The position numbers and the translations under genes are program-made. Positions 5,786 through 34,603 of a DNA stretch of 35,444 bases are shown here, one piece after another. A model generated the notes under the pieces. That model searched no databases. It was given only the letters and a program-made list of their open reading frames with translations, and was not told the origin of the DNA. Origin of the DNA: a virus; the IMG/VR virus record IMGVR_UViG_3300044858_003165, positions 1-35,444 of that record. One strand, 5' to 3'. How positions within the stretch are numbered: the stretch's first letter is position 1; every line of letters begins with the position of its first letter.

Positions 5786-6111
5786 GCAAGTGGGACCGGG
5801 GCATGACCCCAGAAACGCGAGCCGCCCTAAACGCAATCGCCAAGCGCCACGGCTTCACGCTGGAGCGCCTACAGGCGCCGGGGCGTTTCAAGGCGCTCTG
5901 CATCGCGCGCGCCGATTGCTATCGCTATCTGGCGGAAAAGGATTGGAGCACGCCAGCCATAGGCGGCCTCTTCAACCGCGACCACACCACCGTTCTCTGG
6001 TGGCTTGATCCCCAGCGCACCGAGGCCAAGCGCGAGCGCTGCAAGGCCCGCTACCACGCAAAAATCAAAGCCGTAGGTGAGCGCCCAATGGGCGCGAGGA
6101 GGGCCGGATGA
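5782..6111 (+). CDS. DnaA domain-IV-like DNA-binding protein
   Basis: Residues about 38-76 resemble the DnaA C-terminal DnaA-box-binding domain. CYRYLAEKDWSTPAIGGLF followed by NRDHTTVLWWL corresponds to the DnaA signature with its IGxxFxxRDHTTV core. There is no AAA+ ATPase part; the protein is only 109 aa. It could bind DnaA boxes at a phage origin or compete with host DnaA. The start is GTG 5782, overlapping the nuclease stop as GTGA; extending upstream in the same frame (to ATG 5692) would read antisense-like sequence inside the nuclease gene. It sits inside the replication module. Confidence 0.75.
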   Translation: MSKWDRGMTPETRAALNAIAKRHGFTLERLQAPGRFKALCIARADCYRYLAEKDWSTPAIGGLFNRDHTTVLWWLDPQRTEAKRERCKARYHAKIKAVGERPMGARRAG

Positions 6112-6650
6112 GCGTTCAAGCCAAACACGCAGAGATCGAATGGCGCCGCTGGGCAGACGAGGAAACGTATTACCCGTTACGCGATGACACTCGCGCCGTT
6201 CAGCAGCACGGCCGTGTCCGGCAATACCGGGCGCGCTGGGCCATTGAGCAGGATTCCGTTCGCAAGCGGCTGACGGATGGCGAGGCGGCAGTAGCGCGCG
6301 CCGCCCGCTGGCTTTACGTCAAGACATTGGACCCTAAGCGAACGAACTTTGAGTTCGTGGACAGCGGCGGGGCCCAGAACGCCTGCGAGGCGAGGCGGCT
6401 GATGCACCGCTTCGAGAAGGACAGGTTCGCCAATTTGGAGCAAGTCAGCAGCCGCATCAAAGGCGGCAAGCAATGCTTCCACGGCATCTGTGAGGGCGAC
6501 AGCTTGGCCGAAATCCAGCGCCGGTGCGGCATGGACCGCGACCATCGGGGCTCAATCGACCTGATCAAAACCGTCCTTCGCGCACTCGAACTTTACACCG
6601 AGTTCAACGAAGCCGAGGCCGAGCGTTGGAATAATCGGAGACGCCCTTGA
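6108..6650 (+). CDS. Hypothetical protein, last gene of the early/replication operon
   Basis: 180 residues, basic and mostly helical. Residues about 133-170 (SLAEIQRRCGMDRDHRGSI and the following helix) could form an HTH. I do not recognise a family. It is the last gene before a terminator and a non-coding island that precedes the packaging genes. That is where many phages keep a late-gene regulator or antiterminator, so a regulatory role is a reasonable guess only. Start ATG 6108 overlaps the previous stop as ATGA. Confidence 0.65.
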   Translation: MSVQAKHAEIEWRRWADEETYYPLRDDTRAVQQHGRVRQYRARWAIEQDSVRKRLTDGEAAVARAARWLYVKTLDPKRTNFEFVDSGGAQNACEARRLMHRFEKDRFANLEQVSSRIKGGKQCFHGICEGDSLAEIQRRCGMDRDHRGSIDLIKTVLRALELYTEFNEAEAERWNNRRRP

Positions 6651-6694
6651 CGGCTTGCAGCAAATCAGGGCAGGAATCGTGACACTGGATTTGT

Positions 6695-6730
6695 GCGCCC
6701 GGAGAGTGAAAGCTCGTCCGGGCGCTTTCA
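6695..6730 (+). terminator. Terminator closing the early/replication operon
   Basis: GCGCCCGGA (6695-6703) and TCCGGGCGC (6717-6725) form a perfect 9-bp stem with a 13-nt loop, followed by TTTCAGTTTC. The T-tract is interrupted, so termination may be partial. It lies 45 nt after the last replication-module gene. Confidence 0.6.
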
Positions 6731-6810
6731 GTTTCTGGCGGACGCGCTCGGACGGCCCATCCCTGTCAGCCCCTTGACGCTAGCCGCTCCACCGCCCGCC
6801 AGAATCCAAC

Positions 6811-6914
6811 CCACAGCAGCCCGCCACGCTGCCGCCCTATGATCGTTCGGCAATGGTTAGCCGGATTACGGGCGGCGGCGATTTCCCTCCTTGTCCCTAA
6901 AAGGCGGGCTGCTG
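6811..6914 (+). other. Large nested inverted repeat: structured RNA, origin or packaging-site candidate
   Basis: An outer 12-bp perfect repeat pairs 6814-6825 with 6903-6914. Inside it, CGCTGCCGCCC (6827-6837) pairs with GGGCGGCGGCG (6870-6880) over 11 bp with one wobble, capped by a small CGGC/GCCG stem. The right-hand internal bulge (6881-6902) is pyrimidine-rich and holds CCTCCTT, the same as the anti-Shine-Dalgarno core. The island 6651-6935 otherwise holds a terminator and two GANTC sites (6674-6678, 6802-6806) and no convincing gene. Confidence 0.5.
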
Positions 6915-6935
6915 CGGACCCAACAGGAGCAAGAC

Positions 6936-7016
6936 ATGACCAAGCTGAATGCCAAGACCAAGAAGGCCGCCAAGGCCGCGAAGAAAGCCCCGGCCAAGAA
7001 GGCGAAGGCGCGCTAA
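6936..7016 (+). CDS. Lysine/alanine-rich basic miniprotein (26 aa), histone-H1-tail-like
   Basis: An AGGAG ribosome-binding site (6925-6929) precedes the ATG by 6 nt, and the next gene follows after 3 nt. After MTKLNAK the sequence is almost only Lys and Ala with one KAPAKK block, like the C-terminal tail of histone H1 or bacterial H1-like proteins. It has about ten lysines, one arginine and no acidic residue, so nucleic-acid binding is likely. It could condense DNA for packaging or block a host nuclease, but this is inference. It is the first gene after the structured island. Confidence 0.6.
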   Translation: MTKLNAKTKKAAKAAKKAPAKKAKAR

Positions 7017-7019
7017 ACC

Positions 7020-7469
7020 GTGGGCGAGCCAGTAAGCGCGCTCCCCGAAGCCACACGCGCAGCAGCGCTGGCCAAGGTCAAAGCGCGCGAGGACGGCATA
7101 CGCGCTCAAGCCATACGCCAAGGCCGCGAAGCCGAACGCAAGGACATGCTGCAAGCCTTGGGCATCCAGCGCATCGAGGAAGCAAGCCAGCTAGCCCAGC
7201 TCCGCGCCGAACGCGACGCGCGCCCCACGGCAGGCGAAGAAGCCAAGCACGGCAGACACCAGCGCTGGCTAGGCTTCGCCATAGGCGTGCCAGCCGGCAT
7301 GATCCTCGCCTGCGGCGCCATCTTCGCGATGCAGGGCATCATCTGGGACACCGCAACGCGCTCGTTCCGTGAGCAAGCCATGACCGGCGCGATCATCTCA
7401 AGCCAGGGTGATGGTGAGCGTAATGATGCTTACACGAACCCAGGCCAAGACGTGACGCGCAGGCCATGA
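7020..7469 (+). CDS. Membrane-anchored coiled-coil hypothetical protein (149 aa)
   Basis: Residues 10-75 are a charged helical segment rich in Ala, Arg, Glu and Gln. One transmembrane helix at about 84-107 (WLGFAIGVPAGMILACGAIF) follows, then a polar tail. The start is GTG 7020, three bases after the previous stop, with no strong SD, so translation probably re-initiates. No family is recognised. Its place between the basic miniprotein and the terminase genes is not diagnostic. Confidence 0.6.
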   Translation: MGEPVSALPEATRAAALAKVKAREDGIRAQAIRQGREAERKDMLQALGIQRIEEASQLAQLRAERDARPTAGEEAKHGRHQRWLGFAIGVPAGMILACGAIFAMQGIIWDTATRSFREQAMTGAIISSQGDGERNDAYTNPGQDVTRRP

Positions 7470-17978: not shown

Positions 17979-18209
17979 ATGAAGGCTCGCTTTATCGGCG
18001 ATCCTCGGGAACTGGAGAGCGGGAAACCGCTCTCCAGGGCTCCGTCCGAGGAATGGTTCGACGTGCCGGAAGGCATGGAGGACAAGTACCGCAACAACGC
18101 TCATTACGAGACGGACGACGCGCCTGCGAAGCCCGCCCCGAAGCGTGCGCGCGCGGCTAAGCGTGCGGCGCCCAAGATCGAGACTGACGGCTGGGAGGAT
18201 GGCGAGTGA
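17979..18209 (+). CDS. Small hypothetical protein with basic Lys/Ala segment
   Basis: 76 residues. The N-terminal half (KARFIGDPRELESGKPL, then EEWFDVPEGMEDKYRNN) looks folded. The second half has a KPAPKRARAAKRAAPK stretch and an acidic end. A perfect 11-bp hairpin with a GAAA loop lies in the coding sequence at codons 12-20. The gene starts 1 nt after the previous stop and overlaps the next as GTGA. Many tailed phages have a head-completion protein here, but no similarity is visible. Confidence 0.6.
   Translation: MKARFIGDPRELESGKPLSRAPSEEWFDVPEGMEDKYRNNAHYETDDAPAKPAPKRARAAKRAAPKIETDGWEDGE
18012..18037 (+). other. Perfect 11-bp hairpin with GNRA tetraloop inside a coding region
   Basis: CTGGAGAGCGG (18012-18022) and CCGCTCTCCAG (18027-18037) enclose GAAA. 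The stem is perfect and the loop belongs to the extra-stable GNRA class. No T-tract follows, so termination is unlikely. A role in mRNA processing, stability or slowed translation downstream of the highly expressed capsid genes is possible. Confidence 0.65.
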
Positions 18210-28403: not shown

Positions 28404-29386
28404 CCGATTGGTTGAACCGCGCGCGCGCTGAAGCGTTCCGCAACCGCGACCGCTTCACCACGCGCCGGCCAATCGACCCAAGCTCACCCACCACGTCCGT
28501 AGCGGGCCAGATCGCGCCCACGATCCGCCGCGAGGACTTGCGCCCGCTTCCTACGCGCGAGGAGCAGCGCGCGGCGTATGACGCAGCCCAGCGCGACCGC
28601 CAAAGGCCACGCGCCCCGGAGGCGTATCAGGACCCGCGCAACCAGTTCGCGGAGGCGGGTGGCATGGCGCTCGAAGCAACGGGCCTGCCTGCTGTTCGCA
28701 GGTCTGCGCGTGCGTTTGCTTCGGGCGATCCCCAGACGGGGGTAGAGGAAGGCGCTATGGGCGCGCTTAGCTTGGCTACGCTTGGCGTAGGCGGGCGCGG
28801 TGCGCGTGCGCAGCAGCCGCGTCCTGCGCCGCCGATGCGTGCGCCTATGCCGGAAGCGCCGCCACAAGGCGGCGCTCTGCGTCCGCCGCCTCGCCAGCTC
28901 GGCACGGCGTCAGACGGCAGCGTCATGCCGGTGCGTGAGCCGCAGCCGTTCCGGCAGAGCATGGTCGGCGGCAGCGATGATCTGGCGGAAGCGGCGAGGC
29001 CGCGCGGCGCGCTCGACGCGGGCAATGGGGGGGCTGTCAGGCTTTATCGCGGCATAACAAATGGTCAGTTAGGTGGTCGTTACTGGACGCGCGATCCTGA
29101 ATATGCAAGCCGTCAGGCGCTCGGCCAAGGCGACCGAGACGGCCTAGCCGTTATGTCTGCCGACGCGACATTCCGCAATCCATATCGCGTGCGAGATGCT
29201 AGTGAAAGCACAATGCTTGAAATGCCCGAGATTGGGCGGGGCCAAGCGTGGATAGACTCGCTTAGGGCGCAAGGTCACGATGCGATCATTGATGACCTTG
29301 GCAATCAGATTTACGTTCTAGATGACAGCATTTTGACGCCGGCATTCGGCCGCGCCAGAAGCCCCACGCCACCGAGGCAGCAATGA
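28400..29386 (+). CDS. Ejection-cluster protein with C-terminal ADP-ribosyltransferase-like domain
   Basis: 328 residues in two parts. Residues 1-205 are disordered, Pro/Arg/Ala-rich, like the neighbouring ejection proteins. Residues about 212-315 look like the ART domains found in phage polyvalent and toxin proteins: RLYRG (214-218), GRYWTRDPEYA (226-236), FRNPYRV (258-264), a LRAQGHDAIIDDLG block (288-301) and IYVLDDSILTP (304-314). The third catalytic acidic residue cannot be assigned with confidence. The domain's DNA looks less GC-rich than the rest, and a run of seven G marks the junction. Co-ejection with DNA to modify a host target, as T4 Alt does, is the inference. Confidence 0.6.
   Translation: MTDWLNRARAEAFRNRDRFTTRRPIDPSSPTTSVAGQIAPTIRREDLRPLPTREEQRAAYDAAQRDRQRPRAPEAYQDPRNQFAEAGGMALEATGLPAVRRSARAFASGDPQTGVEEGAMGALSLATLGVGGRGARAQQPRPAPPMRAPMPEAPPQGGALRPPPRQLGTASDGSVMPVREPQPFRQSMVGGSDDLAEAARPRGALDAGNGGAVRLYRGITNGQLGGRYWTRDPEYASRQALGQGDRDGLAVMSADATFRNPYRVRDASESTMLEMPEIGRGQAWIDSLRAQGHDAIIDDLGNQIYVLDDSILTPAFGRARSPTPPRQQ
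29027..29033 (+). repeat. G7 homopolymer at the domain junction
   Basis: Seven consecutive G residues immediately before the codons for AVRLYRG in the 28400 gene. A one-base slip in either direction leads to a stop codon within about 70 nt, removing the ART-like domain. Confidence 0.8.
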
Positions 29387-30219: not shown

Positions 30220-30897
30220 TTACTTAGTGACGACGAGGCGGGGCTTGGCGGCTTTCGCAGCCTTGCGCGCCTTACGGGTTGCGGCAGCTTTCTGCCCGCG
30301 CTCCTTGAACATCAGCGCCATCCGCTCCTCAGCGGTTATAGGCGCTGGCACTCGGAACTTCTCGGCCGCGAAGTTCAGTAGGCCGAGCAAAACGAGTGCG
30401 AACCAAAGCTCGCCGTCAAGCGGGCTCAAGTTCGCGTTCGTGGGACGGACCAAGCGGCGGGCTGCTTCCTGGATTTCCCAGGAGTCCACCGTTTGCTCCG
30501 AGATCGTCAGGCTGGCCTGCGCGGCAAGCGCCTGATCGACTTCGTATGCCGGGGATGCGTGGTAAGCGTCCCAAGCGGTCTGATCGTTGTGGAGCTTCAC
30601 GGCGCTTCCGAAGAAGAACACCGGGAAGCACAAGAAGGCGATCGCGATCAGGCGAACGATGCCAGCTTGGCGGCGGACGGACTTGCGTTCGTCTGCCTTC
30701 ATCTGGCCGATCAGGGTAAAACCGAGAGCGGCGAGGATAGCGCCCAGGATGGTGATGGCGGCGAATTGGACGCCTTCGACCGGGGTGGCCTGGGTTTGGT
30801 ACGCGAACAGGGCGCTCTTGCTCTCCACGGAGAGGATGAGCACCCACAGGCTGACGGTGATCGCCGCCTGCTGAAGGTGGTGGGTCTTAATTTGCAT
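30220..30897 (-). CDS. Polytopic membrane protein (225 aa), probable accessory/exclusion gene
   Basis: Four likely membrane helices at about 11-33, 43-65, 79-101 and 162-179, with a periplasmic-type loop (about 102-160) and a strongly basic C-terminal tail (KAAATRKARKAAKAAKPR). No family is recognised. It is expressed leftward from a strong promoter (TTGACA-17-TATCTT) with SD GGGAGA, divergent from an RHH regulator whose presumed operators lie in this promoter. The layout is that of a regulated accessory gene, such as superinfection exclusion or lysogenic conversion, rather than a virion gene. Confidence 0.68.
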   Translation of the reverse strand: MQIKTHHLQQAAITVSLWVLILSVESKSALFAYQTQATPVEGVQFAAITILGAILAALGFTLIGQMKADERKSVRRQAGIVRLIAIAFLCFPVFFFGSAVKLHNDQTAWDAYHASPAYEVDQALAAQASLTISEQTVDSWEIQEAARRLVRPTNANLSPLDGELWFALVLLGLLNFAAEKFRVPAPITAEERMALMFKERGQKAAATRKARKAAKAAKPRLVVTK

Positions 30898-33438: not shown

Positions 33439-33812
33439 CCCCGCCGCGCCCTGAAGGCTGGCTCCACCGCGCGCCGCGCCCGCTCGTCATGTGGCTGGCC
33501 GTGCTCATGGTGGTCTGCGTCATCGCCTTCTTCATCGCCATCGGCACAGCCATCGCCACGGCGTTCCAGCGCGCCGCCGAGACGGGCCAGCCGGTCCCGG
33601 ACATGAGCGGGGGCCTTGCCGCCGTCATGACGGGCCTCGCGGCGCTCCTGCCTGCGCTGGCGTCGTTCTGGCAAATCTTCAACCAGCGCCACATTGAGCG
33701 CAGGGACGAAATCGCGCGCGGGGGTGCGCCTAGCCCTTTTCCCCAAGCCGCGCCGCCGCCCGAGCCTTCGCCAACTGGCGGGCTCGTCAACAACGAGGCC
33801 CTAGAGCAATGA
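33435..33812 (+). CDS. Holin candidate, two membrane helices (125 aa)
   Basis: Two hydrophobic helices at about 17-44 (WLAVLMVVCVIAFFIAIGTA) and about 60-80 (GLAAVMTGLAALLPALASFW), then a charged segment and a Pro-rich tail. Size and topology suit a class II-type holin. It lies directly ahead of the spanin pair, with ATGA overlaps on both sides. No endolysin gene is present nearby, which weakens but does not exclude the call. Confidence 0.6.
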   Translation: MTPPRPEGWLHRAPRPLVMWLAVLMVVCVIAFFIAIGTAIATAFQRAAETGQPVPDMSGGLAAVMTGLAALLPALASFWQIFNQRHIERRDEIARGGAPSPFPQAAPPPEPSPTGGLVNNEALEQ

Positions 33813-34603
33813 CCATGCACCCCGTCCCTGCGCGTCTCATCCGTGGAGCGCGCCGGACAGGGGCGTTCGTGTGGCGCAAGGTCCGCGACCCGCTGGGGCG
33901 CCGCCGCCACGTCACCGAGGGCCAGGAAGTCACAGCCCAGGAAACGCGGACCATGCTGGGCCTCATGGCCGACGCCAACGCCGCTGGCGCGTCCATGACC
34001 GACGAACAGCGGCTTATGCTGATCCAGGCAGCACCCGGGATGCGCGCGCGCGAGGCGGTGCTGCTGAGCATCCCGAACCGATCGACGGTGGAGGAGAACG
34101 AGCTGCACATGATCCGGCGCGAGATGGCGGCGCTGGAGGGGCGTCCGGTGGTTCAACCGCGGCGCTTCCTCCCGGCCATCCCTGCGGTCGCGGGCTTTGC
34201 CGTGCGCCCCTGGATGCTCTGGGGCGGCGCGCTGGCCGCTGTGGCGCTCTGGGGCGGATACAATGACGTGCGCGCGGGCAGGGCTGAGAACCGGCGCGAC
34301 GAGGCCGAGGCCAACCTAGCGCGCGCCGAGCGCACCTTGGCCGCAACAACGACAGAGCGCGATTTGCTTGCTGACGCTGTTGCCTCTGCGGACGCACAGA
34401 CCCAACGAACAGCCGAGACGATTGAAGCAGAGCGCGCCCGGCGACTAGCGGCCGAACGCGAAGCCCGGAGGATCAGGAATGAAATGGAACGTGCGCGCGC
34501 TGGCGCTGGCTCCGTCGATTATGGGTTTGGGAGCGTGCGGGACACTGGGGCTGGATCGCCCGGCGCCGGTGGTGGTGACGCAGCCGGTCGTGATCCCGGC
34601 TGA
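33809..34603 (+). CDS. Inner-membrane spanin, Rz-like (264 aa)
   Basis: One membrane helix at about 132-151 (VRPWMLWGGALAAVALWGGY), then a periplasmic coiled coil (about 155-230, repeated ERA/EAERARR heptads) and a Gly-rich tail. This is the i-spanin layout, and the partner lipoprotein starts inside the gene in another frame, as in Rz/Rz1. Unusually, about 130 residues precede the membrane helix; classical Rz starts with it. The long cytoplasmic part includes a helical region (40-110). Confidence 0.65.
   Translation: MTMHPVPARLIRGARRTGAFVWRKVRDPLGRRRHVTEGQEVTAQETRTMLGLMADANAAGASMTDEQRLMLIQAAPGMRAREAVLLSIPNRSTVEENELHMIRREMAALEGRPVVQPRRFLPAIPAVAGFAVRPWMLWGGALAAVALWGGYNDVRAGRAENRRDEAEANLARAERTLAATTTERDLLADAVASADAQTQRTAETIEAERARRLAAEREARRIRNEMERARAGAGSVDYGFGSVRDTGAGSPGAGGGDAAGRDPG

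Follow-up and report, generated by a model that had tools for sequence, protein, structure and literature searches.

The 35,444-base window analysed here (IMG/VR virus record IMGVR_UViG_3300044858_003165, positions 1 to 35,444) raises the question of what role a gene-free stretch plays at the point where the replication-side half of the genome meets the head, tail and lysis genes. The stretch spans 6651–6935 (285 nt): the upstream open reading frame (ORF; 6108–6650) stops at 6650, with no further plausible gene before 6936, which bears out the gene-free interval marked in an earlier, sequence-only reading. That reading had set the gap against a genome of genes overlapping by four bases, an arrangement that holds for part of the genome and not throughout, and 584–1001 (418 nt) is a longer gap in the same window. 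To the left of 6651–6935 lie a methyltransferase, GcrA, Mom, a DnaB-like helicase and a primosomal protein, together with weak matches to a VRR-nuclease-like and a DnaA-C-like protein; to the right lie terminase, portal, head and tail genes and a weak spanin-like match. The N6/N4 methyltransferase, GcrA and Mom genes adjoin one another at 1002–2867, a phage-borne cluster that points to modified DNA and to a host among the alphaproteobacteria; because the phage carries GcrA, an alphaproteobacterium is probably its host.

Three hairpins, designated T, H1 and H2, stand in a row on the plus strand of the gap, followed by the AGGAG ribosome-binding site of the first late ORF (6925–6929, invariant in all aligned rows) and the ATG of that ORF (6936–7016), which encodes 26 residues rich in lysine and alanine and has versions of 26–27 residues in relatives. 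Hairpin T (6695–6735 with its U-rich tail) resembles an intrinsic terminator, with a stem of 6695–6703/6717–6725 extended by inner pairs 6704–6706/6713–6715 and with five T among the next eight nucleotides. It contains a bulge and was not listed by a hairpin scan of the sequence, which permits none. Hairpin H1 (6733–6804, arms 6733–6744/6793–6804) is nearly invariant in sequence and had been missed in the sequence-only reading. Hairpin H2 (6811–6917) comprises an outer stem, a 22-nt one-sided loop, an inner stem and apical stems. Its outer arms (6814–6825/6903–6914) pair at 12 of 12 positions and extend to 6811–6825/6903–6917 with one mismatch, its inner arms (6827–6837/6870–6880) form 11 pairs including one G–U, and its apical stems are 6840–6844/6864–6868 and 6848–6851/6860–6863. 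The nested 12 bp outer, 11 bp inner and apical stems reported earlier were recovered at the same positions by pairing and folding, and the terminator-like hairpin placed at 6695–6730 agrees with the stem, the fold and the U-rich tail.

The folding of the gap is stronger than its composition predicts. Compared with dinucleotide shuffles (n = 200), the whole gap has a z-score of −5.0, with 0/200 shuffles as stable, and H2 alone reaches −5.3, again with none of 200 shuffles as stable. When all 110-nt windows of the genome were ranked by stability regressed on GC content, H2 came first on the plus strand and third on the minus strand. Second on the minus strand was 671–780, within the 584–1001 gap, which also contains the complementary arms 634–651/742–759; the other folds unusually stable for their GC content (30391–30500, 17981–18090 and 28421–28530) are mostly in or beside genes. 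A search of the whole window against Rfam gave no match at or above the gathering threshold, the sub-threshold matches being at chance level only. Two other readings of the hairpins were discarded: the spacer of a promoter within H1 (TTGACG to CAGAAT) would be 20 nt long, and coding within H2 (ORF 6839–7372) is disrupted among relatives by loop insertions and deletions of one or two bases. H1 also contains CCCCTTGACG, which has a boxA-like look.

H2 ends 7 nt upstream of the ribosome-binding site. A CUCCU in its loop (6887–6891, plus strand) is complementary to the AGGAG at 6925–6929, and the two could, speculatively, form a pseudoknot; in the L093 and L116 types the loop motif is reduced to CUCC.

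A search with the outer-stem pattern matched 14 viral contigs, 13 of which are true relatives, all from uncultured phages; one contig (L117) shared the outer-stem pattern only and was set aside. Across the resulting alignment (the window plus 13 relatives, 14 rows with 6 distinct H2 sequences) 92% of the H2 pairs are kept, two inner pairs have both partners replaced (G–C/A–U and C–G/U–A) and one more changes from C–G to U–G. The covariation and percentage-paired scores were reached in 10 of 500 shuffle controls, and the observed count of double-sided pairs in 208 of 500. Covariation in relatives, which the sequence-only reading had proposed as a check, shows in two compensatory inner-pair changes; such pair counts are frequent in shuffles, and with few independent changes behind it the covariation in H2 is suggestive. 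The outer stem never varies in the 14 rows, an invariance that is uninformative as to pairing and is partly imposed by the search pattern; protein-based searches found no relative spanning the region without the invariant outer stem. The spacing from the leader to the ribosome-binding site is likewise invariant across the rows. The conserved fold with its two compensatory changes supports the suggestion, made from the sequence alone, that the gap holds a structured RNA.

Wider searches left this family as it stood. Motif scans for the H2 loop and for H1 recovered, chance matches aside, only this same family, and a second protein-based scan added no relatives. The TerL relatives of the window do not carry the element, a plasmid collection gave no match to it, and named phages gave no DNA match to it, their matches being confined to the Lys/Ala-rich coding stretch of the 26-residue ORF. 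The H1–H2 leader, absent from Rfam and from the named phages and plasmids searched, is apparently a previously undescribed RNA element. The number of leader hairpins varies: contig L118 has one extra (2681–2780), placed between H1 and H2 and built on a similar core (TGTCAG...CCCC...TTGAC), which was found in none of the compared loci outside that contig.

The genes on both sides of the leader are exchanged around it. Contigs L082 and L083 match the window at 98–99.5% identity as far as the final base (7469) of a gene (7020–7469, plus strand) for a 149-residue protein with a hydrophobic stretch, the last gene ahead of the exchanged packaging genes; beyond it they carry an unrelated packaging module in which proteins of 434 and 127 residues replace the terminase genes of the window, and further contigs with the element have yet other packaging modules. 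The module joint is sharp (7469/7470 in the window, 1786 in L082 and 6362 in L083). In another contig (L200) this leader, with its ribosome-binding site, is followed by a different ORF, so it is the operon rather than any particular first gene that the leader serves. The 149-residue protein gave no tblastn match in named phages, and a reading of it as a spanin was dropped, as it has no family match and the spanin-like gene sits at 33809–34603 instead. The 3' end of its gene (peptide YTNPGQDVTRRP) recurs at the C-terminal end of another ORF that differs in the rest of its sequence (L112 3166–3204 and 3519–3572; also in L113–L115), and this repeat may mark a site of recombination or a signal ahead of the packaging genes.

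On the upstream side, the block 6646–6730, which includes T, shows no DNA match between groups, and DNA conservation begins sharply at 6731, with H1 92–99% and H2 77–100% identical across groups. The upstream gene and this block are exchanged together, and the H1–H2 leader (6731–6917) stays.

These exchanges bear on whether the element acts as DNA. A packaging (pac/cos) site or a site of replication initiation, both proposed in the sequence-only reading, would fit the position between replication and packaging genes, and inverted repeats exist on DNA too. A packaging site is disfavoured because the same unchanged element precedes terminase modules unrelated to each other, and a replication site has little in its favour, since the element persists beside differing replication genes and no repeat array was found. 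The one hint of a replication site is the minimum of the cumulative GC skew near 5–7 kb, which may merely reflect late transcription. The change of C–G to U–G and a conserved U–G pair also fit an RNA of the plus strand, and a DNA site of either kind is very improbable. A recombination linker or small mobile hairpin unit with no role in expression would accommodate the exchange of genes on both flanks and the extra hairpin of L118, but it leaves unexplained why pairs of the inner helix change in a compensatory way and why the distance to the ribosome-binding site is constant, and it too is given very little weight.

The block that is exchanged with the upstream gene begins with a box, TTGAC-N9-CAAATC (6647–6666, plus strand), that is a candidate late promoter −35 element and regulator site. 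It has a single exact match in the window and is present in every group despite differing flanking genes (as TTGAC-N8/9-CAAATC, with TTGCC in L093), at 159–167 nt upstream of H2 in all groups and at 258 nt in L118. A copy with one mismatch lies on the minus strand at 606–625, inside the 584–1001 gap. If TTGAC is a −35 element, CAAATC would fall between −35 and −10, where the sites of Q and AlpA are located (PMC6606751, PMC7969949, PMC9371919). A promoter scan found no σ70-type promoter, no convincing −10 was recognized downstream of TTGAC and the aligned initial regions of the groups share no −10-like (pause-site) sequence. The box does not fit a CtrA site (TTAA-N7-TTAA), and a GANTC near it is not kept across groups. 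A hairpin of differing sequence occupies the place of T in all groups, with a U-rich tail in three of the four types; the L093 and L119 types have a T lacking a good U tract. Judged by its stem, tail and position between the candidate promoter and the late genes, T qualifies as a putative intrinsic terminator.

Upstream of the box lies the gene at 6108–6650 (plus strand), which encodes a 180-residue protein predicted to be all-helical with a C-terminal helix-turn-helix and occupies the place that Q has in lambda. A Q-type antiterminator was proposed for it from position alone, before its predicted fold was compared with the PDB. The protein has no match in Pfam, PHROGs or NCBIfam, and tblastn of the Q-like proteins against named phages gave none. 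Three groups have proteins of 172–180 residues at this position, with mutual identities of 20–29%; in the L112 group the protein is longer (243 residues) and its kinship to this family is unclear. The AF2 model of the window protein (pTM 0.68) has AlpA as its first PDB row (7xya; Z = 5.6 over 100 residues, r.m.s.d. 5.6, 6% identity), tied with σ region 4 proteins and about equalled by response-regulator helix-turn-helix domains. The model of its relative in L089 (26% identical to the window protein; pTM 0.45) has Q21 first (6p1c; Z = 6.4 over 102 residues, r.m.s.d. 4.2), AlpA second (7xyb; Z = 5.4) and lambda Q in eighteenth place (Z = 3.5). The leading values of 5.6 and 6.4 are both below a safe threshold, in a range that common helical arrangements can give, and both models share the same few aligned sequences. 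Foldseek on its own found nothing significant for the models. A Q21/AlpA-like fold is thus weakly indicated by the predicted structures for this fast-diverging family, which appears undescribed as far as searched.

The explanation favoured here, on which confidence is evenly balanced, is that the gap is an early/late switch resembling lambda PR'–tR', governed by Q-type antitermination and followed by the conserved structured leader of a late operon of ∼28 kb. A promoter near 6647 would give a short transcript ending at T. The Q-type protein encoded by 6108–6650 would load onto RNA polymerase at this promoter, and the loaded polymerase could then read through T into a single ∼28 kb operon running from terminase to lysis. 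The read-through RNA would start with H1 and H2 and so reach the first ribosome-binding site by way of the leader, whose role is most likely protection or processing of the 5' end of the late mRNA or control of the first start site. The parts of such a switch, the conserved fold of the leader and the joint exchange of the Q-like gene and T can be read from the sequences compared. The position of the gap at the head of the head, tail and lysis genes supports the switch, as do the fold comparisons, with Q21 then AlpA leading for the L089 relative and AlpA for the window protein; the earlier suggestion of a late-promoter control region is strengthened by the same position and predicted fold.

A plain operon boundary would account for T and the leader with no antiterminator at all: T would end early transcription, the late promoter would lie elsewhere or depend on an ordinary activator, H1–H2 would protect or process the late mRNA and the helix-turn-helix protein would be a conventional regulator. 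Its resemblance to σ region 4 and response-regulator domains, about as good as that to AlpA, is compatible with such a boundary. Against it, the L089 relative has Q21 and AlpA as its first two PDB rows, and the box and T lie directly behind the Q-like gene and are exchanged with it. A plain boundary is accordingly considered unlikely, while retaining appreciable weight.

The favoured switch shares with the late control regions of lambdoid phages (the Q gene, PR' and tR' of lambda, 21 and 82) the order of antiterminator-like gene, candidate promoter, terminator hairpin and long late operon, a box that would fall between −35 and −10 of that promoter and the joint exchange of gene and control block. 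It differs in the window protein, for which no sequence similarity to Q was detected, in lacking a recognized −10 or −10-like pause site and in the conserved two-hairpin leader that stands behind the terminator. CAAATC, moreover, stays constant across upstream proteins that share only 20–29% identity, whereas a cognate Q site would be expected to vary. With the AlpA system of Pseudomonas aeruginosa (the alpB promoter, ABE and tB) the window would share a site between −35 and −10 and a terminator just downstream, and the best structural match of its protein is AlpA itself, although at a Z of only 5.6 with 6% identity; the box differs, and AlpA controls a chromosomal lysis operon rather than phage late genes.

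Structured 5' leaders stabilize or process phage mRNAs, as at RNase III sites. H1–H2 resembles such leaders as a long, mostly double-stranded hairpin structure near the first ribosome-binding site, but its sequence is far more conserved than this role alone requires. That conservation, extreme for H1 across groups with a completely different upstream block, and the presence of two adjacent hairpins ahead of a ∼28 kb operon would suit a cis-acting antitermination RNA that modifies RNA polymerase, as the put RNAs of HK022 do; these are about 70 nt long, likewise consist of two strongly conserved stem-loops in a leader before a long operon and act at a distance (PMC9378689). H1–H2, however, is much larger (∼187 nt) and differently built, precedes a late and not an early operon, has no Rfam match and lies downstream of T, so that no action on T is possible; a put-like RNA is improbable. 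A broader proposal, that late expression requires H1–H2 as a cis-acting phage RNA of a new class, either put-like in concert with a Q-type protein or a leader in which a pseudoknot gates the start site, is likewise improbable.

Detailed knowledge of Q-type late antitermination comes from a small number of gammaproteobacterial phages and from AlpA. The kind of system proposed here is already known, and the protein family and the leader appear to be new as far as tested. If the switch is real, a Q-like family unrelated in sequence, with its own box and terminator, in a phage whose host is probably an alphaproteobacterium, would widen the range of Q-type late control.
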